Source: an uncultured Saprospiraceae bacterium
GTDB lineage: Bacteria > Bacteroidota > Bacteroidia > Chitinophagales > Saprospiraceae
Length of the DNA: 39,302 bases
NCBI GenBank assembly: GCA_937967625.1
Contig: CALCJP010000126.1
Span: 1 to 39,302 of the forward strand
Reading direction: 5' to 3'
A model generated the notes under the pieces. The model saw only the letters and a list, made by a program, of their open reading frames with translations, made no database searches and had not been told where the DNA came from. A program made the translations under genes and the position numbers. Below are positions 3 to 39,022 of the stretch, one piece after another (position 1 is the first letter of the stretch; every line of letters begins with the position of its first letter).

Positions 3-3000
3 GACTCAGACAATGACGGTATCATCGGCGCTCTAATACCAACCGTTGACAAAGATGGAATCGCAATCGCAGACGGCAACAATGCCCAGCTACCTGTGAC
101 TTCCAATCCAATCGACACTGATGGTGACAATACTCCTGACTGGCATGATTTGGATTCAGACAATGACCTAATCTTTGACACTCATGAGGCAAATAACCCA
201 GACAACGATGACGACGGAACGATAGGTGTCGGCGTACCAACCGTAAACGCAAATGGACAGCCGATTGCGGATAGTTTAAACACACCATTGACTGCTATCT
301 CAGATCCAGAAGATCATGACGGTGACGGCATCGCGGATTTTCAAGACATTGATAGAGACAATGATGGTATCGTTGATATTTATGAATGTGACCAATGGCC
401 ATGTGTCGATACTGACAATGACGGCGTTTCCGATGTCGATGATTTAGATTCAGACGATGATGGTTTGAGTGATAGCGATGAGTGTATCAACGGCGCTAAC
501 TGCCCTGATGATGACAACAACGACGTCGATAATTTCCGCGAATACACTTGCCACAATGGTAACACCCCCGTGATTATTGACCTTTCAAATAGCGTTGATA
601 TTTGCGAAGGCAATTTGGTAACACTGACTGCAATCAATGCCGTGCCAGCCACTGATTCAGTGGACTACACATGGACTGGACCAGGTGGATTTATCTACAC
701 AGGAACAGCCGCTTCAGCAGGACCATTTCCGCTTGACGCGAATAACCTAACAGCCGGTAATTCAGGAAGCTTCTCATTAGCTATCGTTTCTGATAGAGGG
801 TGTCCTTCGCAGCCAAAAGATGTGGCAGTGACTGTCAATCCTACTTTAGCGCCACCGTTGCTTGACGCAAATGAGAATGAATTTTGCGAAAGCGAAGAAT
901 TAATCCTAACTGCCACAGCGGCAGGAGTAGCCAATCCAGAATATGTATGGTTTTATGATGGTGGTTCAGGCAGACGAGCATTCGATACCACTACTGTAAA
1001 TACCCTGACACTTGGATTTTTGAGATCGGTTCAATCAGGAAAATACTCAGTCAATGTCACTGACAAAGGCTGTACTTCTGACAACTCAAATGAAGAAGAC
1101 ATAGCAGTTAGAACTGGACCTGCTGTTGATGCACCAACCAATGGTACCGTCAACGCTCCGGCATGTGAAGGAGACAATGTAACCTTGACTGTCAATCCGG
1201 TTTCAGGTGCATTCTATGAATGGTACGATGCAGATGGCACCTTGATTGGTGACACTCCTTCGCTTACGCTAAATGGCGTGACAACTTTCGATGCCATGGA
1301 CTATTATGTCTTGGTCACCAAAGATGGATGCGGAACTACTTCTGCAACAACTGCAGTAAGCGTAACCGCAACACCTGACCAACCAATTATTGACAACATG
1401 GGACCTGTTTGTGAGGGAGAAGACGTGACCTTCACTGTTACTAACCCAATCAATAACCCAAGTGGTCCGATTAACTATACTTGGTTCCATGATGTGACAG
1501 GTGCGGTAGTTGGTAACACTACTGACGGAATGTTTTTCATTCCTAATGTAATGACTACTGATGGAGGTCGCTACTTCGTTTCTGTTGATATGGATGGATG
1601 TCAATCTATTCCGTCCAATGGGGTGATGTTGGACGTAAGTCAAGCTATCAATATGACGACTCCTACTAACAATACCACGATGACCAGCCCACTATGCGAG
1701 GGTGATGACTTGATGTTAACTGCTGATATGACTGCCGGAGTGACCTACTCTTGGACGGGTCCAAATTCATTTACCTCTGTCAACCCATCACCAGTCATTA
1801 CCAATGCGACTATGGCTGATGCGGGTGATTATATTTTGACTGTAACCAGAGGAGGATGTGTCGAAGCAGTACCTCCAACGACTGCTTTCATCAGAGAGAA
1901 ACCGACCACTCCAATTTTAGATATGCCAGTGTCAGTTTGTGAAGGGAATATGGCAATGATTTCAGTTGCTAACCCTGTTTTCCAACCCGGCACCACTGTA
2001 GAATATGTTTGGTACGACGCGATGACCAATCAGCCAGTTACTACCACGACTACTCCAATGATTGAGTTCCCAAATGCGACTACTGCAAATACCGGAACCT
2101 ACTACGTCATCATCAGAGTGGATGGTTGTGACTCAGACGCATCAAATGCGCAGTTTTTAGAAATTACAGGCGGTTTGGCTACTGATATGCCAACCAACCA
2201 AACTACTGCTGCTGATCCAGCATGCACAGGTGATGACATTCAATTGACTGCAGAATGGATTCCGGGAGCAACTTACCAGTGGGTAGGGCCAAACGGATTC
2301 TCTTCTTCTAATGTCAATCCAGTGATTACCAACGCGACGATGTTGGATGCAGGAGAATATTACATTGTTATCGAAAAAGATGGTTGTTCTTCTACCACGA
2401 TGGCAACGGAAGTTTTCGTTACGGAAACGCCTGACCAACCTATGATTGCTACTCCAGATGTGCCTTGCGAAGGTGATATGGCGATTATCAACGCCATTTC
2501 GCCGACAGGCGCAGGAATCGAATATACTTGGTATAACGCAGCTACTAATGATGTGATTTCAATGACCAGCGGACCAACTTTGGAAATCCAAAACGCGACG
2601 CAAATGGTTGCGGGAGATTACTACGTGGTAGCAGCCAAAGATGGTTGCGAATCCATGCCTTCTAACCCGATGGCATTGGCTGTTCAGATGATTCCAAACG
2701 AATCGGCATTTGCGATAGATGATCAAATCTACGTTTGTGATGATGAAAACATCATGCTTGAAGCAGTGGAGCCAACGATGTCTTCAGGAGTCTGGACGGC
2801 AGTGAATACTAACGCAACGATTGCGCAACCAAATATGCCAACTACGATGGTGAACAATTTGGACGCGAATACCAACATGTTCGTTTGGACGCTTTCAGAA
2901 GGTGCTTGCGAGAACTTTAGTAGAGATACCGTTTGGGTCAATAATGACAACGCAGATACTGAAGCAACCAATGATGAGTACGAAGTGATGATCAATGAAG

Positions 3001-3512
3001 AGTTGCCAAACGCAACGGTTCTTTCCAATGACGCTTTCGCGAATATGGATGACCTGATGATCAATTTGGTTACCGAACCAACCAACGGTGAAGTAACTCA
3101 AAATACAGACGGCACTTTCACTTACATGCCAAACGAAGACTACTTTGGCATTGATGAATTCACCTATGAGATTTGTAATGTCAACTGTCCTGACCAATGT
3201 GATCAAGCAGTCGTAACGATTCGAATCAACTTGGGTGACGATTGCTTCGTGCCGAACTTCATTACACCTAATGATGATGGTGCCAACGATAACTTCACCG
3301 TGACTTGTTTGCGTGACCCGGATGCTTTCCCTGAGAGTGAAATGATGATTTTCAACCGATGGGGTGATAAAGTATTTGAGGCGGCACCATATACGAACAA
3401 CTGGAATGGAACATACCGCAATGACGCATTACCTCCGGGGACTTATTTCTACTGTTTGAAATTGACTCCTGATGGCGACGCTGAAACGGGTTATGTAACG
3501 ATAATCAGATAG
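3..3512 (+). CDS. T9SS type B sorting domain (CHU_C / gliding motility C-terminal) surface adhesin, 5'-truncated by window edge
   Basis: Frame is open to the window start (DSDNDGIIGALIPTVDKDG...), so the GTG at 96 is not a real start. Asp-rich thrombospondin type 3-like repeats (DSDNDLIFDTHE, DTDNDGVSDVDDLDSDDDGLSD), tandem Ig-like domains (CEGDNVTLT...), a cadherin-like segment (NDEYEVMINEELPNATVLSND), and a C-terminal VPNFITPNDDGANDNF...IFNRWGDKVFE...W.G..LPPGTYFYCL signature. Confidence 0.9.
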   Translation, partial: DSDNDGIIGALIPTVDKDGIAIADGNNAQLPVTSNPIDTDGDNTPDWHDLDSDNDLIFDTHEANNPDNDDDGTIGVGVPTVNANGQPIADSLNTPLTAISDPEDHDGDGIADFQDIDRDNDGIVDIYECDQWPCVDTDNDGVSDVDDLDSDDDGLSDSDECINGANCPDDDNNDVDNFREYTCHNGNTPVIIDLSNSVDICEGNLVTLTAINAVPATDSVDYTWTGPGGFIYTGTAASAGPFPLDANNLTAGNSGSFSLAIVSDRGCPSQPKDVAVTVNPTLAPPLLDANENEFCESEELILTATAAGVANPEYVWFYDGGSGRRAFDTTTVNTLTLGFLRSVQSGKYSVNVTDKGCTSDNSNEEDIAVRTGPAVDAPTNGTVNAPACEGDNVTLTVNPVSGAFYEWYDADGTLIGDTPSLTLNGVTTFDAMDYYVLVTKDGCGTTSATTAVSVTATPDQPIIDNMGPVCEGEDVTFTVTNPINNPSGPINYTWFHDVTGAVVGNTTDGMFFIPNVMTTDGGRYFVSVDMDGCQSIPSNGVMLDVSQAINMTTPTNNTTMTSPLCEGDDLMLTADMTAGVTYSWTGPNSFTSVNPSPVITNATMADAGDYILTVTRGGCVEAVPPTTAFIREKPTTPILDMPVSVCEGNMAMISVANPVFQPGTTVEYVWYDAMTNQPVTTTTTPMIEFPNATTANTGTYYVIIRVDGCDSDASNAQFLEITGGLATDMPTNQTTAADPACTGDDIQLTAEWIPGATYQWVGPNGFSSSNVNPVITNATMLDAGEYYIVIEKDGCSSTTMATEVFVTETPDQPMIATPDVPCEGDMAIINAISPTGAGIEYTWYNAATNDVISMTSGPTLEIQNATQMVAGDYYVVAAKDGCESMPSNPMALAVQMIPNESAFAIDDQIYVCDDENIMLEAVEPTMSSGVWTAVNTNATIAQPNMPTTMVNNLDANTNMFVWTLSEGACENFSRDTVWVNNDNADTEATNDEYEVMINEELPNATVLSNDAFANMDDLMINLVTEPTNGEVTQNTDGTFTYMPNEDYFGIDEFTYEICNVNCPDQCDQAVVTIRINLGDDCFVPNFITPNDDGANDNFTVTCLRDPDAFPESEMMIFNRWGDKVFEAAPYTNNWNGTYRNDALPPGTYFYCLKLTPDGDAETGYVTIIR

Positions 3513-3631
3513 TGAGAGCATGGAGAATGTGAGAGTGTGAGAATATGAGAACGCGAGAAGTTTCTCACACTCTCATTCTTTCAAATTCTCACACTCTCAT
3601 TCTCTCAAATTCTCACACTCTCACTTCTCTG
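3512..3631. repeat. 8-nt periodic palindromic array (NNNGAGAN x6 then inverted NNNTCTCA x9)
   Basis: Parses in 8-mers: GTGAGAGC ATGGAGAA TGTGAGAG TGTGAGAA TATGAGAA CGCGAGAA | GTTTCTCA CACTCTCA TTCTTTCA AATTCTCA CACTCTCA TTCTCTCA AATTCTCA CACTCTCA CTTCTCTG. Begins at the adhesin stop codon. Confidence 0.85.
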
Positions 3632-3666
3632 ATAAAAAAGATTTAAAAATATTAAGTGAGACCACA

Positions 3667-3706
3667 TTTGCCGAAAACTTGTCCCGAAATTTCTTCGGGA
3701 GGCAAA
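3667..3706. repeat. Nested hairpin: TTTGCC...GGCAAA enclosing TCCCGAA-ATTTC-TTCGGGA
   Basis: Direct reading: tttgccgaaaacttgtcccgaaatttcttcgggaggcaaa. Confidence 0.75.
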
Positions 3707-3735
3707 AAATCTCATTTCAAATAATTAATTTTCAA

Positions 3736-4653
3736 ATGAAATTATTAAAATTATCCATCATGATATGCCTGCTAAGCACCGTTGCTTATGGGCAGAACGA
3801 TGTGCAGTTTACGCACTTCATGTTCAACAAAATGGGTTATAACCCTTCCTTCGCCGGTCATAATGAGGCACTGACCGTTGGAGCGATTTATCGCGAACAA
3901 TGGCTTAACATCGAAGGAGCACCACGTACTATTAACGCACACGCACACACCCCTTTTGCTAATAGCCGCAACGGTATTGGTCTTTCTTTGACCTCCGATA
4001 AAATCGGAATGTTTCAGACCAACGCAGTTGACCTTGCTTATGCTTATCGTATGCCTTTGGGCAAAAACAAATTGAGCATCGGTATCAACGGTCGATTGGA
4101 GCACGCCGTCGCAAATTGGAACATGGCAGAAGGCGTCGATCCAGGCGATGTGATGTTGCCAGGCAACGAGCAAAGCATCATCCTCCCAAACTTTGGAGTG
4201 GGGTTAAACTACTCAAGCGATAGCTACTACTTCGGTGCTTCGGTTGCGCAGTTGTTGAATAATTCTTACTACCAATTCAGTGACGTTCCTAACGAAAACG
4301 ACGCGATGATGCGTACCCTTTACTTAATGGGTGGCGCTGAATTCGGTATCACTAACAATGTCAAATTCGTACCGACCGCTTTGGTTTCTTACAATCCAAA
4401 TGCGCCAGTTGATTTTGATTTGAATTTAGGATTCTTATTCATGGAGCGCTTCTATGCAGCTTTGAATTATAGACTATCGGATTCGTTTGACTTGATGTTG
4501 ATGTATCAATTGACGCCTCAATTTAGAATGGGTGCGGCGTATGATTTCACCGTCTCGGAGTTGGCTGGAAAGACGCCTGGCTCTTTTGAGTTCATGGGGT
4601 CTTACACCTTCAACTATGATGATGAGAACATCAAGAATATTCGATTCTTTTAA
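3736..4653 (+). CDS. PorP/SprF family type IX secretion system membrane protein
   Basis: Signal peptide MKLLKLSIMICLLSTVAYGQ then NDVQFTHFMFNKMGYNPSFAGH, typical of PorP/SprF; ATG at 3736 preferred over the longer ORF start at 3679. Confidence 0.9.
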   Translation: MKLLKLSIMICLLSTVAYGQNDVQFTHFMFNKMGYNPSFAGHNEALTVGAIYREQWLNIEGAPRTINAHAHTPFANSRNGIGLSLTSDKIGMFQTNAVDLAYAYRMPLGKNKLSIGINGRLEHAVANWNMAEGVDPGDVMLPGNEQSIILPNFGVGLNYSSDSYYFGASVAQLLNNSYYQFSDVPNENDAMMRTLYLMGGAEFGITNNVKFVPTALVSYNPNAPVDFDLNLGFLFMERFYAALNYRLSDSFDLMLMYQLTPQFRMGAAYDFTVSELAGKTPGSFEFMGSYTFNYDDENIKNIRFF

Positions 4654-7048: not shown

Positions 7049-7090
7049 ATTTCGGGAGAACGAGATTTCGGGATTTCGAGAACTCGAAAT
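7049..7090. repeat. 8-nt phased repeat (ATTTCGGG AGAACGAG ATTTCGGG ATTTCGAG AACTCGAA AT)
   Basis: Seven nt after the stop codon; ends in the palindrome ATTTCGAG-AACTCGAAAT. Similar string tcgggagagcgagatttcggga at 37386. Confidence 0.7.
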
Positions 7091-7130
7091 GATATAAAAT
7101 ACTGATACCTAAATATCAACAGACCTGCCG

Positions 7131-7161: not shown

Positions 7162-7239
7162 TAGTATGGCACGCTGATGACGCTGATTATCATGATTTTC
7201 GCAGATCAGGCCAATCAGCGTCATCAGCGTGCTATACTA
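7162..7239. repeat. 27-bp inverted repeat built from 9-nt units (ACGCTGATG ACGCTGATT ... CAGCGTCAT CAGCGTGCT)
   Basis: TAGTATGGCACGCTGATGACGCTGATT versus the reverse complement of AATCAGCGTCATCAGCGTGCTATACTA: 26/27 match; 24-nt loop. Confidence 0.9.
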
Positions 7240-16065: not shown

Positions 16066-16111
16066 TGGGGTAAAATGCCTCGGTCCTGAGTGCGACCGGG
16101 GCTATTTTTTT
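16066..16111. terminator. GC-rich hairpin with T-run (GCCTCGGTC...GACCGGGGC TATTTTTTT)
   Basis: Direct reading of complementarity and following T-run. Confidence 0.55.
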
Positions 16112-16285
16112 GCCTTTCGGCAAATTGGGGGTAATTGACTGCCTCAAATGACATTTTCCGAAAGGAAAATACCCCTCCTCTGTTAATTCAGCCTTTCGGC
16201 AAATGAGGGGAAGTTGCTTCAACCAAAAATTTTCCGAAAGGGAAGATAAAAACCCTCTCATGTTTGAGCCTTTCGACAAATAATT
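16109..16285. repeat. Tandem array (about 77-nt period, about 2.3 copies) of alternating TTTC- and GAAA-loop hairpins
   Basis: gcctttcggcaaat at 16112 and 16191, degenerate gcctttcgacaaat at 16268; ttttccgaaagg at 16154 and 16230. Confidence 0.75.
16153..16170. repeat. GAAA-tetraloop hairpin, perfect 7-bp stem (ATTTTCC-GAAA-GGAAAAT)
   Basis: Representative intergenic member of the dispersed family. Confidence 0.9.
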
Positions 16286-24741: not shown

Positions 24742-24783
24742 GATATTATTTTTTTGAGTAAAATTGAAAAAAATACAAAATCA

Positions 24784-24895
24784 ATGGTTGAATTGTTAAA
24801 TGGCTATATGGTTTCATGGCTAAAGGGTTATATGGCTGATTGGTTGTTTTGCCAAACCATGAAACCATTCAGCCATGAAGCCATTGAACCACCTC
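24784..24895. repeat. 8-nt periodic palindromic array (ATGGYTNN units then RCCATNNA units)
   Basis: ATGGTTGA ATTGTTAA ATGGCTAT ATGGTTTC ATGGCTAA AGGGTTAT ATGGCTGA TTGGTTGT TTTGCCAA ACCATGAA ACCATTCA GCCATGAA GCCATTGA ACCACCTC. Confidence 0.85.
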
Positions 24896-24899
24896 CATA

Positions 24900-25505
24900 T
24901 TAAATACTTGCCTTCCGGCGAATCGAAAGACAAACCTTAATAATCCAAATGAAGGTAATTACAATAATAACTTTCTGAAAAGCGGGAAGGAATTCTATAA
25001 AGAAATTGGTTGCATACATTAGATATCCCACCACATTTGCCGAAAGGCAAATTATCGCCCCCAAGAGTGTCTTTTTCTTTTTAGATTGCCACAGCTCAAC
25101 CAAACCTAAAATGCCCGCAATAAGCCCAAAAAAGACCATCAGATTGATGCTGGTGTTATGCCATTCGGTGAAAACGAAAAGGATGGAAATCATCGCAAGT
25201 GCCCCGAAGAGTTGGACGCCTCTCAAACGTCTGTTTATGCTTTCGAATAAATAGGGGAACACTAAAAAGAAAACCAATACACTCGCCGTGATGACGATAT
25301 GCCCAGCCTTAGCAATTAGATGAGCTTCATTGTATCGCCCAAATTTTTCCACAGCCATCAGGTCGCACCAATAGTTGTGAACCCAACTAAATCCCTTTGC
25401 ATCGTGCGCTGTTTCATGCCCACCGGTGTAGAGGAAAGTAGCGATGAAAAAAAGGATGACGTAAAGGACAATTCCAAAAATCGGTATGAGTGCAAATCGT
25501 TTCAT
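24900..25505 (-). CDS. Polytopic membrane protein of unknown function
   Basis: MKRFALIPIFGIVLYVILFFIATFLYTGG...; about six TM segments. Confidence 0.65.
   Translation of the reverse strand: MKRFALIPIFGIVLYVILFFIATFLYTGGHETAHDAKGFSWVHNYWCDLMAVEKFGRYNEAHLIAKAGHIVITASVLVFFLVFPYLFESINRRLRGVQLFGALAMISILFVFTEWHNTSINLMVFFGLIAGILGLVELWQSKKKKTLLGAIICLSANVVGYLMYATNFFIEFLPAFQKVIIVITFIWIIKVCLSIRRKASI
25035..25052. repeat. GAAA-tetraloop hairpin inside a CDS (ATTTGCC-GAAA-GGCAAAT)
   Basis: Perfect 7-bp stem, encodes CLSAN in the 24900-25505 CDS. Confidence 0.85.
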
Positions 25506-28241: not shown

Positions 28242-28937
28242 ATGAACGAAATATTAAAAGTCCAAAACCTCACCCGAACCTACCGCAGCGGCTCACGTGA
28301 ATTGACCGTTTTGCAAGACGTTACCTTTTCAGTGGAGCAGGGAGAAAGCCTCGCGATAGTCGGCTCCTCAGGAAGCGGCAAGACGACCCTTTTAGGTTTA
28401 TGCGCAGGTTTGGATAGACCTACTTCCGGCACCGTTTCCCTTTACGGGAAAACCCTAAACAACCTCACCGAAGACGAACGTGCCGCCCTCCGCAACGAGC
28501 ATGTAGGTTTCATTTTCCAAAATTTCCAGTTGATACCGACCCTAACTGCCCTCGAAAATGTCATGATCCCTCTCGAACTCAAAGGCAAATCAGGTGCTGC
28601 AGACGTCGCCAAAGATTTGCTCGAAAGAGTGGGTTTGGGCAAACGATTCGACCACTACCCAAGCCAACTTTCCGGTGGCGAACAACAGCGCGTCTCCCTC
28701 GCCCGTGCCTTTTCCAACGAGCCCAAACTCCTCTTCGCCGATGAGCCAACTGGCAACCTCGATGAAGAAACCAGCCAAAGCATCGAACAACTCATGTTCG
28801 ATCTCAACAAAGAAAAAGGAACCACCCTCATCATCGTCACTCATGACAATGACTTGGCGGCAAAAACAGGTCGCGTCATTCGCTTGAAAGGAGGACAGGT
28901 GGTTTTTGATGAGGTGCAAAGTAGCGTCCTAAAGTAG
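28242..28937 (+). CDS. ABC transporter ATP-binding protein (YbbA/LolD type)
   Basis: Walker A GSSGSGKTTL, signature LSGGEQQRVSLARAF, Walker B LLFADEPTGNLD. Confidence 0.92.
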   Translation: MNEILKVQNLTRTYRSGSRELTVLQDVTFSVEQGESLAIVGSSGSGKTTLLGLCAGLDRPTSGTVSLYGKTLNNLTEDERAALRNEHVGFIFQNFQLIPTLTALENVMIPLELKGKSGAADVAKDLLERVGLGKRFDHYPSQLSGGEQQRVSLARAFSNEPKLLFADEPTGNLDEETSQSIEQLMFDLNKEKGTTLIIVTHDNDLAAKTGRVIRLKGGQVVFDEVQSSVLK

Positions 28938-28992
28938 CGTCCAAATTTATTTGGGCGAAAGACAGCAATTAGTTCGAATAGTTGCGAAAAAA

Positions 28993-29226: not shown

Positions 29227-30291
29227 ATGAAAACTTTCGCTAACATCCTCAAGCAAAACCGCGAGTTGAATAACTGGAAACTCAAAGAAGTCGCGGCATT
29301 TGTCAAAATCGACCAAGCCTTAGTCAGCAAATTCGAAAAAGGGTCGCGTATGCCTACCGAGGCACAAGTCGCGGCTTTCGCCGAATTGTACAACCAGCCC
29401 GATTTGAGAAAATACTGGTTGGCTGAGAAAGTCCTCAATTTGCTTGCCTATGAGGTCGATCCACTTGCCGTCATGGAAGTAGCAGAGTCTCGCGTCGAGT
29501 ACTTGCGCAGCAATCGCTCATTGGAAGTGCCTGCCCTGAGTGATTCAATCATGGAAAAATTGGCGCGTTTGGATCAACTCAAAGCAGAGTGGCAAAAGAA
29601 CAAACCACTCAACAAAACGCAGTTGTCCAAAATGGCGGAGTTTTTCAAAATTGAGTACACCTATGAGTCCAACCGCATCGAGGGCAACACCCTCTCGCTG
29701 CAAGAAACCGGACTCGTAGTCAATGAAGGACTCACCATCAGCGGCAAAACCATGGTCGAACATCTCGAAGCCATCAACCATGCGCAAGCAGTGGATTTCG
29801 TGGCGGAGTTGGTGCGTGGGTCAGTGGACTTTTCCAAACGCAACTTGCTGCAATTGCATGGCTTGATTTTGAGTGGCATTGATCGCGAGAATGCAGGTCG
29901 CTATCGCTCCGTGCCAGTGCGAATCAGTGGTAGCAAACACGAGCCACCACAGCCGTTTTTGTTAGACAAATTGATGGAAGATTACTTCCTTCATTTCGCA
30001 CAGCAAAAGCAGGCAATGCACCCAGTCATTTTGGCGGCAGATATGCATGAGCGTTTGGTGAGCGTCCACCCATTCATTGATGGCAATGGGCGCACCAGTC
30101 GTCTGGTGATGAATCTGATATTGCTACGCCACGGCTTCACTATCGCCAACTTAAAAGGTGATGTGGAGTCGCGCCTCCGTTACTACCGCGCCCTCGAAGC
30201 GGTGCAGGTAGATAATGAGCCAGAGCACTTTTACCACTTGGTTTGTGATGCGGTGGAGGAGTCTTTGAAAGCGCACTTGGCGTTGGTGTGA
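29227..30291 (+). CDS. Fic family protein with N-terminal XRE-type HTH
   Basis: N-terminal HTH (LKEVAAFVKIDQALVSKFEKGSRMPTEAQVAAFA); Fic motif HPFIDGNGRTSR; inhibitory-helix-like SNRIEGNTL. Confidence 0.93.
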   Translation: MKTFANILKQNRELNNWKLKEVAAFVKIDQALVSKFEKGSRMPTEAQVAAFAELYNQPDLRKYWLAEKVLNLLAYEVDPLAVMEVAESRVEYLRSNRSLEVPALSDSIMEKLARLDQLKAEWQKNKPLNKTQLSKMAEFFKIEYTYESNRIEGNTLSLQETGLVVNEGLTISGKTMVEHLEAINHAQAVDFVAELVRGSVDFSKRNLLQLHGLILSGIDRENAGRYRSVPVRISGSKHEPPQPFLLDKLMEDYFLHFAQQKQAMHPVILAADMHERLVSVHPFIDGNGRTSRLVMNLILLRHGFTIANLKGDVESRLRYYRALEAVQVDNEPEHFYHLVCDAVEESLKAHLALV

Positions 30292-30321: not shown

Positions 30322-30369
30322 CTTTCTGCTTGGTGGGGAGTCGCTTTTTTGTTTGCCTTTCGGCAAATG
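30322..30369. repeat. Dispersed direct repeat, copy 1 (CTGCTTGGTGGGGAGTCGCTTTTTTG..TTTGCCTTTCGGCAAAT)
   Basis: Matches copies at 31324-31376 and partially 30659-30676. Confidence 0.8.
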
Positions 30370-31323: not shown

Positions 31324-31376
31324 GCGACTTCCTGCTTGGTGGGGAGTCGCTTTTTTGTTTTTGCCTTTCGGCAAAT
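31324..31376. repeat. Dispersed direct repeat, copy 3
   Basis: cgacttcctgcttggtggggagtcgcttttttgtttttgcctttcggcaaat. Confidence 0.8.
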
Positions 31377-36151: not shown

Positions 36152-36253
36152 GGGTGATTGATTGATTGTTTTTTTGCCTTTCGGCAAATGGCTTTGCGGC
36201 TGAATTGCCCGATTCGGGGGTCAGGGAGCAAAACATTCCACGAAAGTGGGCAT

Positions 36254-36289
36254 CAAAAAAACCTGTTGGAATCATCCAACAGGTTTTTT
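36254..36289. terminator. Bidirectional terminator
   Basis: AAAAAACCTGTTGG-aatcat-CCAACAGGTTTTTT between convergent genes. Confidence 0.85.
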
Positions 36290-36336
36290 AAAACTCGAAT
36301 CACGCAACGCGCAACTCGTCCACTCGCAACTCGAAC

Positions 36337-37020
36337 TTACTTCGTACGAAGAATATATTTCTCAATATCACCTGCTTCAGGCGAATTCGGATAATTATCT
36401 CTAATCTTCATGTAAGCAGCATTAGCAGCAGCTTTATCTCCATTTTTTTCGTGGAGCATCGCTACTTTTTTCAAGTAGTAGGTAGTGAGGATTTCGTTGT
36501 CACCTGCAGCGGCTGCTTTTTTGTAGTAGCTCATTGCGTTGCTCATGTCGTTCAATTCTGCGTAAGCATCGCCCATGGCACCTGCTGTGGTGATTGGCAA
36601 AACATCGCCACTTGGGCTGAAGTCATCCAAATATTCTATTGCAGCTTCAAACTGTCCCAAATTCAGGTAAGAAATACCTGCATAGTAGCTGGCAGTGTTA
36701 GCAGCATTAGTGCCGCCGTATTCGTCGATGATGTCCAAGAAGCCAGGGAAACCTGCTCCCGGATTTTTCAAAGCCAACTTGAAAGAGTCTCTATCAAACT
36801 GCTCCTGAGCTTTATACATTTGCTCCATCGCCTCTGTTTGCTTTGGACCCAAATAGAGATATTTATACGCGAAGTAAAGTGCTGCCAAAGCAACCAAACC
36901 AATCAAAACATAAAACAACAAATTCTGGTTGCGCTCCATAAAGTCGCCCGTTTGTTGTTGTACCTCCTCTGCTACTAAAACCTCCTCTTCTTGCTGTCTG
37001 GTGTTTTTTCTTCTTGCCAT
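36337..37020 (-). CDS. Tetratricopeptide repeat membrane protein (YfgM-like)
   Basis: One TM helix then TPRs (ASYYAGISYLNLGQFEAAIEYLDDF, AMGDAYAELNDMSNAMSYYKKAAAAG). Confidence 0.85.
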   Translation of the reverse strand: MARRKNTRQQEEEVLVAEEVQQQTGDFMERNQNLLFYVLIGLVALAALYFAYKYLYLGPKQTEAMEQMYKAQEQFDRDSFKLALKNPGAGFPGFLDIIDEYGGTNAANTASYYAGISYLNLGQFEAAIEYLDDFSPSGDVLPITTAGAMGDAYAELNDMSNAMSYYKKAAAAGDNEILTTYYLKKVAMLHEKNGDKAAANAAYMKIRDNYPNSPEAGDIEKYILRTK

Positions 37021-37384
37021 TGTAAATGGATATTTTGATTTATGAAATTTCTAATATGAATTTGCCTGAAAATCAGTTTTATAGAAACATTTTTCTCAGG
37101 CTGCTCAAAAAGCGGCGCAAAAATAAAGAAACTTTTCTTTCAAAGCGCGCTTACGCATGTCTAAAATTTGAAATACTTACGGGCGCAGCAAATAGTAGTT
37201 TCGAATTTAGAGATTTTGAAGTGAGATTCTCTACCTTGCACGTAGGGTGGATTGGTAATCCGCCACCTAATTTTGCAAAAGCAGAGAAGGTGTTAAATTG
37301 AAAATTCATTTTAATAAAAGCACTCTATCTTTTTAGGTTCTTAGACAAATTCCGTGGAACTTATAAAAAATGAATTTGAGCAAT

Positions 37385-37447
37385 CGGGAGAGCGAGATTT
37401 CGGGAACAAAACACGTCTCGAAATCACGAGTTCTCGAACTCGAAAAT
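37385..37447. repeat. 8-nt phased inverted array (TCGGGAGA GCGAGATT TCGGGAAC AAAACACG TCTCGAAA TCACGAGT TCTCGAAC TCGAAAAT)
   Basis: Direct parsing; related to 7049-7090. Confidence 0.7.
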
Positions 37448-37548: not shown

Positions 37549-38871
37549 ATGAAAGACCTTTACCTCAACAATCGTTTTTTCTATCTCTTCGGTTTCATTG
37601 CCGTGCTGTTTGTTAGTGGATTTTGGATTGAGCCGATGTTTTATGCGGCGATGGTTTTTTTCGCAATGGCAGTCACGCTTTCGATTTTTGAGGGCTTAAC
37701 CCTTTTCTCCAAAGAGGTGCGCCTTACGGCAAATAGAAAGACGCCAAAGATGTTTTCCCTCAGCGACGTCAACGAAGTCCAACTTCGAATTTCTAACAAA
37801 TCCAATCGCGAGTTTGAGTGCCTCGTGGTGGATGAGTTGCCTGTGCAGTTTCAAAAAAGAGATTTTGAAATCGAAACGACCCTGTCTGCCAAATCTAAAG
37901 AAACGCTTACTTACGAAGTGCGCCCCGTGCGCAGAGGCGAATACGAATTTGGAAAAATCCACATTTTCCTAAAATCAAAATTAGGACTCATCGAGCGCCG
38001 CATCACTTCTGATGTGGAAGAATCGGTCCCCGTCTATCCTTCTATCAAACAAATGAAGGAATTGGAATTGCGCGCCTTTCGGCGAACGACCAATCAGGAA
38101 GGCATCAAAAAAATGCGTCGCATCGGTCATAGCTACGAGTTTGAGCAAATCAAAAACTATGTGCAAGGTGACGACTTCCGCTCCGTCAATTGGAAAGCAA
38201 CGAGTCGCCGCAGCGAGTTGATGGTCAACCAATTTCAAGATGAGCGCTCGCAGCAGGTCTATTGCGTCATTGACAAAAGTCGGGTGATGAATATGCCTTT
38301 TGATGGCTTGTCGCTTTTGGACTATGCGATTAACTCGACGTTGGCGCTCTCCAACATCATTTTGCGAAAGCATGATAAAGTGGGGCTACTGACTTTTTCT
38401 GATAAATTAGGAACCGTCCTCAAAGCAGATCGCAGAGCGGGTCAGCTCAATAAAATCCTACATGCCCTCTACAACGAACGCGAACATCAACTGGAAGCCA
38501 ACTATGAAATGTTTTATTACGCCATCAGGCGCATGGTGCCGGCGAGGAGTTTGTTGCTGATGTACACCAATTTTGAAAGCATGTATGCGCTGGATCGGGT
38601 GTTGCCCATTTTGCGCCGCATCAATCGGTTTCACCTGCTCGTGGTGGTCTTTTTCGAAAACACTGAAATCAAAGATTTCGCCACCCAACCCGTTGAGTCG
38701 TTGGAAGGAATCTATACTCAGGCAGTCGCTCAAAAATTCGTGACCGAAAAAACGCAGATGGTTCAAAAACTCCAACAATTTGGGATTCAGAGCATATTGA
38801 CGCGACCAGAAGATTTGTCCATCAATTCGATTAATAAGTATTTGGAGATGAAAGCGCGAGGGCTTATTTAA
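37549..38871 (+). CDS. DUF58 domain-containing protein
   Basis: FQKRDFEIETTLSAKSKETLTYEVRPVRRGEYEFGKIHIFLKSKLGLIERR...IGHSYEFEQIKNYVQGDDFRSVNWKATSRRSELMVNQFQDERSQQVYCVIDKS. Confidence 0.93.
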   Translation: MKDLYLNNRFFYLFGFIAVLFVSGFWIEPMFYAAMVFFAMAVTLSIFEGLTLFSKEVRLTANRKTPKMFSLSDVNEVQLRISNKSNREFECLVVDELPVQFQKRDFEIETTLSAKSKETLTYEVRPVRRGEYEFGKIHIFLKSKLGLIERRITSDVEESVPVYPSIKQMKELELRAFRRTTNQEGIKKMRRIGHSYEFEQIKNYVQGDDFRSVNWKATSRRSELMVNQFQDERSQQVYCVIDKSRVMNMPFDGLSLLDYAINSTLALSNIILRKHDKVGLLTFSDKLGTVLKADRRAGQLNKILHALYNEREHQLEANYEMFYYAIRRMVPARSLLLMYTNFESMYALDRVLPILRRINRFHLLVVVFFENTEIKDFATQPVESLEGIYTQAVAQKFVTEKTQMVQKLQQFGIQSILTRPEDLSINSINKYLEMKARGLI

Positions 38872-38872
38872 G

Positions 38873-38935
38873 TTCAAAGTTCAAAGTTCAAAGTTCAAAG
38901 TTCAAAGTTCAAAGTTCAAAGTTCAAAGTTCAAAG
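38873..38935. repeat. Perfect 7-bp tandem repeat, (TTCAAAG)x9
   Basis: 63 nt, nine identical units starting 2 nt after the DUF58 stop codon. Confidence 0.97.
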
Positions 38936-38956
38936 TTTGGGAGGTTTGAAAAAATA

Positions 38957-38990
38957 AAGGTTCAACGTTGCCAATTGAACGTTGAACCTT
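38957..38990. terminator. 13-bp perfect hairpin between convergent genes
   Basis: AAGGTTCAACGTT-GCCAATTG-AACGTTGAACCTT. Confidence 0.75.
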
Positions 38991-39004: not shown

Positions 39005-39022
39005 ATTTGCCGAAAGGCAAAT
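39005..39022. repeat. GAAA-tetraloop hairpin (ATTTGCC-GAAA-GGCAAAT)
   Basis: Perfect 7-bp stem, 1 nt from the gltX stop codon; same 18-mer as at 25035 within a CDS. Confidence 0.9.

Follow-up and report, generated by a model that had tools for sequence, protein, structure and literature searches.

Intergenic regions of the studied Saprospiraceae genome carry arrays of short degenerate repeats, whose usual form is a hairpin located behind a gene, including the space between tandem genes. The latter is the case for the array from which we started, found in the window, i.e., the whole analyzed stretch of 39,302 nt (contig CALCJP010000126.1). The typical element is built of two arrays of the same word set head to head: the G-richer arm, a short loop, and the C-richer arm; it begins only a few bases from a stop codon. 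A search in which each word and its inverse were sought as phased runs, in either order, retrieved 28 two-armed arrays, in all of which the G-richer arm comes first and the C-richer arm second, with no instance of the opposite order (p = 7e-9). The words themselves were defined after the arrays had been seen; the arm-order result is independent of this, as both orders had been searched. Position and geometry point to transcript ends.

The array in the window starts at the base next to the TAG stop codon (3510-3512) of a gene encoding a cell-surface protein that carries Ig-like domains and a sorting domain (CHU_C / type IX secretion type B), and, given the likely start of porP/sprF downstream, the intergenic region comprises positions 3513-3735 (Table 1). 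In the first arm, GAGA starts at 3514, 3523, 3531, 3539, 3547, and 3555; in the second arm, TCTC starts at 3563, 3571, 3587, 3595, 3603, 3611, 3619, and 3626, and TTTC at 3579, so that the count of six plus nine units, made earlier in a sequence-only reading of this DNA, is borne out. The strict 8-nt phasing claimed there holds for 13 units, from 3523 to 3622 (the last unit starts at 3619), and is unbroken across the inversion from 3555 to 3563; it fails for the outermost unit on each side, which is off by one base, with the first spacing equal to 9 and the last to 7. TRF identifies period 8 in each arm (matches of 79% and 70%), in line with the fixed period, degenerate content and inverted halves described initially, and a higher-order 24-nt unit in the second arm, 3563-3631 (95% alike, 2.8 copies), as expected if three units were duplicated at a time. 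The unit identity of 70-79% and the inversion also agree with the opinion that this is not a simple microsatellite, though pure microsatellites of such words exist elsewhere, e.g., at 38870-38937 of the window.

The array is real, and chance is excluded: the intergenic region scores 30 at lag 8, where 5000 dinucleotide shuffles gave 14 at most, and a score of 30 was not attained by any of 1000 shuffles when all lags from 4 to 24 were considered. The RNA fold of the array region has the energy of -60.8 kcal/mol against -34.7 +/- 3.7 kcal/mol in shuffles (z = -7.1), and the predicted hairpin spans about 120 nt, which supports the initial suggestion that the arms are able to fold together. No Rfam family matched this region above the gathering threshold; the sub-threshold matches were nearly all generic microRNA hairpins with scores far below the threshold, and a microRNA identity was dropped.

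Table 1. Features of the window: the array at the surface-protein/porP locus, its flanking genes, and sister elements.
Feature	Coordinates	Strand	Description
Upstream gene, cell-surface protein (adhesin of the sequence-only reading)	96..3512	+	Open frame running off the window start
First arm	3513..3562	+	Six GAGA-bearing units, word NTGAGANN; five in exact 8-nt phase
Second arm	3563..3631	+	Nine inverse-word units (TCTCA); eight in exact phase
Whole imperfect hairpin	3513..3631	+	RNA sense of the upstream gene; -60.8 kcal/mol, z -7.1
Downstream gene, porP/sprF	3736..4653	+	Likely start ATG 3736 (MKLLKLSIMICLLSTVAYG...)
Sister, word TCGRGANN	7052..7091	+	One arm, 9 nt past the stop of an OmpA-domain gene
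Sister, word ATGGYTNN	24783..24892		8 units, then 5 inverted; between two minus-strand genes
Sister, word AACTCGC (period 7)	36292..36337		Degenerate; adjoins a terminator-like hairpin
Sister, word TCGRGANN	37384..37437		3 + 3 units
Sister, word AAGTTCA (period 7)	38870..38989		Ten perfect units, then three inverted

Five sister elements with other words are present in the same window. The terminator-like hairpin beside the AACTCGC sister is of the classical kind and occupies approximately 36261-36290. Other features of the window include an inverted repeat of about 20 bp at 7168-7235 (GCACGCTGATGACGCTGATT ... AATCAGCGTCATCAGCGTGC) with a 9-base rhythm, resembled by 9-base arrays of the relative G023 (ACACGGATG ..., at L208 14375 and L212 5789); an exact 13-base direct repeat AAAGTAGCGTCCT at 28918-28942, overlapping the end of a called open frame; and a gene at 29227-30291 with a Fic/Doc-like domain, its Fic and AvrAC-type matches being well under the curated cut-offs.

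A second family of short hairpins, with the structure TTT-XY-C-GAAA-G-Y'X'-AAA, is represented in the genome by 650 exact TTTNNCGAAAGNNAAA sites, compared to 9 for the reversed control, and occurs in the window at 16109-16124, 25036-25051, 30352-30367, 31360-31375, 36173-36188, and 39006-39021. The XY pairs are complementary at 159 of 187 sampled sites and are of at least ten kinds, hence there is covariation in the stem around a fixed GAAA loop. Relatives from the same genus have only about 5-35 such sites, and G025, from another family of the same order, has TTTTTCGAAAGAAAAA, an invariant form of this hairpin, in about twenty copies.

For the census of arrays we sampled 81 stretches (830 kb) of the same genome, a draft of 3.08 Mb and 278 contigs that is 64% complete, is placed in Bacteroidota by its type IX secretion genes, and provides most of our data. 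Sixty of these stretches (557 kb), namely the window plus contigs drawn in the order of their numbers irrespective of repeats, form the unselected set; the remaining ones were picked for known repeat words and were used for structure and context only. The background for the 268 intergenic regions of the unselected set (54 kb) was given by dinucleotide shuffles, a region being considered array-bearing if it had a lag-k segment with the score of at least 11. There are 15 array-bearing regions with period 8 (0.6 expected), 18 with period 7 (2.2 expected), and 8 with period 6 (1.0 expected); an excess is also observed at multiples such as 14, 16, and 24, and there is little at periods 3, 4, 5, 9, 10, 11, and 13. 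The same count in 65 intergenic regions of E. coli K-12 yielded zero at periods 5 to 11. The locus is thus not alone in its phasing, an isolation that the sequence-only reading had considered fatal to its claim. Plain autocorrelation over all intergenic sequence gives only a small excess, because the arrays cover little of it, and the region count is the informative measure.

At least ten word families are found in this genome. The period-8 words are ATGGYTNN, NTGAGANN, TCGRGANN, GTGTTNNN, and ATGAGTNN; the period-7 words are AAGTTCA, GGTACAC, AACTCGC/GGGTTRC, AGTAGGC, and TTGAATA; and the period-6 words are AT-rich, such as GAAAAT. The word of the window array recurs at several loci (C60, C120, C273, and C47), and ATGGNTNN (ATGGNT), repeated three times in a row with at most two mismatches, has 176 sites compared to 11 for the reversed control. 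Perfect expanded arrays occur beside degenerate ones. Long perfect arrays with one arm also exist, e.g., L118 12765-12884, for which a hairpin is impossible on their own, and at L139 2073-2223 a classical terminator-like hairpin (ATCCCATTC...GGATGGGATTTTTTTT) lies between two arms of an AAGTTCA array.

Nearly always the arrays lie close behind genes. Gene calling followed a simple open-frame rule; the distance to a stop is therefore exact if the frame is a real gene, and the distance to a start is inexact. In 30 of 65 segments the array starts within 10 nt of the stop. Among 34 arrays located at most 25 nt from the stop, the sense strand is G-rich in 30 and C-rich in 4; among 24 arrays more than 50 nt away, it is G-rich in 4 and C-rich in 20. 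In tandem regions the whole element is slightly nearer to the stop (18 vs 15), and the closeness is clear for the first arm. None of approximately 24 unselected arrays with periods 7 and 8 falls in a divergent region, though 60 of the 268 regions are divergent (p = 0.005), a result that would also follow from simple intolerance of such arrays in promoters. Strong folds are predicted at most two-armed loci.

The two arms of an element have a common word, but independent lengths and unit orders. When the units were shuffled within arms trimmed to the repeats, the real pairing was no better than the shuffled one (combined z = -0.3, 23 loci), nor was it in the window array itself (z = +1.25), hence there is no sign of selection for pairing other than that due to the common word. 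Units matched in order would be expected had one arm been copied from the other, or had compensating changes maintained the pairing. An apparent unit-by-unit pairing in the untrimmed shuffle (combined z = -4.9) was rejected, as it stemmed from loop and flank bases and was gone after trimming. Swapping arms among loci with the same word produced no significant loss of pairing for ATGGYT (p = 0.09) or TCGRGA (p = 0.19). As the units are not matched one by one, the arms are not copied palindromes; a few loci are near-perfect palindromes, e.g., L121 7329-7380. The independent lengths and orders fit slippage acting on each arm after an initial inversion. Constraint on the variable positions is unproven: phase-specific degeneracy over 49 arrays is mild (p = 0.002), but a duplication-proof test of degeneracy is negative (129 invariant phases vs 132 expected).

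In relatives we searched for two array words. Many ATGGNT arrays are present in two members of the same genus, G001 and G004, in G006 from another genus, and in G030 from another family of the same order; they are rare or absent in most other relatives; in an even draw of 297 genomes across the phylum, the genome of the window included, an exact match is found in five. TGAGA arrays are common in G003, G004, and G023, the word of the latter being closer to TTGAGRRG. Moreover, the stretches of G023 contain their own period-7 and period-8 arrays with other words, GTTAATG, ATTACAGN, and AAGTTGAA.

The orthologous intergenic regions were compared by spacing, calculated from match coordinates as the distance between the last surface-protein residue and PorP residue 17, with small gaps possibly shifting the values. 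It equals 217 nt in the studied genome (98 nt without the array), about 108 nt in G004, 159 nt in G002, 267 nt in G003, and 40 nt in G014. Hence, the locus of G004, a member of the same genus, has no room for the window array, and on the G003 contig carrying the orthologous locus no TGAGA array is present. The window array is thus recent or changeable, and the surface-protein/porP unit does not include it as a conserved component.

We propose that the arms may grow and shuffle independently via replication slippage, starting from a short inverted repeat. The product would be a long imperfect RNA hairpin with a structural role in the 3' untranslated region, which could block 3' exonucleases and dampen read-through, in the present case between the surface-protein gene and porP. 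A fixed sequence would not be needed, as any word pairing with its inverse would serve, and this would explain the differing words with constant geometry. That such slippage-grown hairpins with fast turnover are tolerated or used at mRNA 3' ends, behind genes, is the reading we tentatively prefer, considering it somewhat short of probable. Weighing against it are the pairing of trimmed arms, no better than with shuffled units, the lack of conservation of the array at the orthologous locus, and the long perfect arrays with one arm.

On present evidence, a neutral origin is nearly as likely. Repeats of 7 and 8 bases would then be by-products of slippage that survive where they are harmless, that is, behind genes, with hairpins produced by template-switch inversion. 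Such an origin is consistent with the lack of unit-by-unit matching between arms, the gain or loss of arrays between relatives (with spacing from about 40 to 267 nt), the presence of perfect expanded arrays beside degenerate ones, and the mixture of many words and three periods. It is less easily reconciled with one word being found at dozens of loci, with the same arm order in all two-armed arrays, and with the start of 30 out of 65 segments at most 10 nt from the stop, which is tighter than tolerance requires. We slightly prefer the role at 3' ends because of the uniform arm order and the tight fit to stop codons.

The stable hairpins predicted behind stops and the avoidance of divergent regions could also be expected from intrinsic transcription terminators of an unusual sequence style, but this is improbable. 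A run of at least five T follows 6 of 54 arrays, which is the background rate (9%), and in the window the second arm is followed by GATAAAAAAG and not by T, with no terminator-like site called at this locus. Lacking a T-tract 3' of them, the arrays are not classical intrinsic terminators. Moreover, classical terminator-like hairpins exist separately and are neither significantly rarer nor significantly more common in array-bearing regions.

We consider it quite unlikely that the arrays are dispersed mobile or converting elements, with one-word arrays spread through the action of a transposase or through recombination among them. The abundance of ATGGNT compared to the reversed control and its patchy distribution (five of 297 genomes in the phylum, yet abundance in G006 and G030, which belong to a different genus and a different family of the same order) would agree with such spread. 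Three TCGRGA hairpins (window 37384-37437, L009 2296-2357, and L100 1917-1986) have a similar loop, GACGTG(T/A)TTTGTTC (cf. GACGTGTTTTGTTC), which suggests that whole elements may have been copied between loci. On the other hand, conserved ends or target-site duplications were not seen at the arrays, and the number and order of units vary at every locus.

Equally doubtful is a dedicated process that would add 6-8 base repeats of a local word on both sides of a break or loop behind genes, making hairpins that serve as interchangeable mRNA 3' ends. Such a process would resemble telomere addition, or end-to-end telomere fusions, with the G-rich strand directed inward on both sides, an equal word, and independent arm lengths and orders. 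Finally, the sequence-only reading had invoked a DNA-binding protein with contacts spaced by 8 nt; the exact phase, the constant core with variable positions, and the mild phase-specific degeneracy would suit such a protein, but many unrelated words with periods 6, 7, and 8 in one genome and the negative duplication-proof test make it very hard to sustain.

The coexistence of many unrelated words with one geometry separates sequence from architecture, and should it be the architecture that matters, a structural role would follow, that of a hairpin at a 3' end. The arrays resemble REP, BIME, and REPIN sequences, which are dispersed extragenic palindromes often proposed to stabilize mRNA 3' ends. 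REPs have a conserved sequence and an associated transposase (PMC2817692); unlike REPs, our arrays conserve the period and the arm order across many words, and no conserved sequence was seen in them. TAACTGA repeats of Beggiatoaceae, Cyanobacteria, and some Bacteroidetes (MacGregor, 2015; PMC4679880) are likewise dispersed intergenic arrays of a short word with a patchy taxonomic distribution. However, they are nearly all direct (169 sets, one indirect) and mostly located just upstream of start codons.

Similarly abundant short-period intergenic arrays were reported in the SPADE survey, where heptamers are the most abundant intergenic tandem repeats of prokaryotes; the passages of the survey dealing with them offer no clue to function and describe neither the head-to-head order nor the stop-codon position observed here (PMC6344855). 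Intergenic degenerate heptamers with constant and variable positions have been described in Xanthomonas (GGGAATC / GGGANTN) and Nostoc (GGGGAYT) by Rehm et al. (2015; PMC4692102). These form convergent pairs with one array per strand (70 and 75 cases), are located on average 28 nt from the upstream gene and 160 nt from the downstream one, are rare between divergent genes, vary in length among close relatives, and form G-quadruplexes in vitro; the Xanthomonas GGGAATC repeats are mostly transcribed, and no function was found. Neither this large survey nor the work on Xanthomonas arrives at a function for the 7-8 base intergenic repeats that are so abundant in bacteria.

As convergent heptamer arrays behind Xanthomonas genes have been published (PMC4692102), the idea of a class without precedent is not upheld. 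The arrays studied here have the same short degenerate tandem units of 7-8 nt, mainly intergenic, the same location near the end of the upstream gene and rarity between divergent genes, and the same convergent arms with the G-rich strand inward (28 of 28; GAGA first and TCTC second in the window). They differ in that the Xanthomonas repeats have one G-run word with period 7, while many words with periods 6, 7, and 8 are found here, in Bacteroidota. Most of these words have no run of three or more G as in quadruplexes; GGG is absent from NTGAGANN, ATGGYT, GTGTT, AAGTTCA, and TTGAATA. The convergent GGGAATC heptamers of Xanthomonas are therefore the closest precedent, minus the quadruplex feature, to which the present data add period 8, many words without G-runs in one genome, and a measured arm-order rule.
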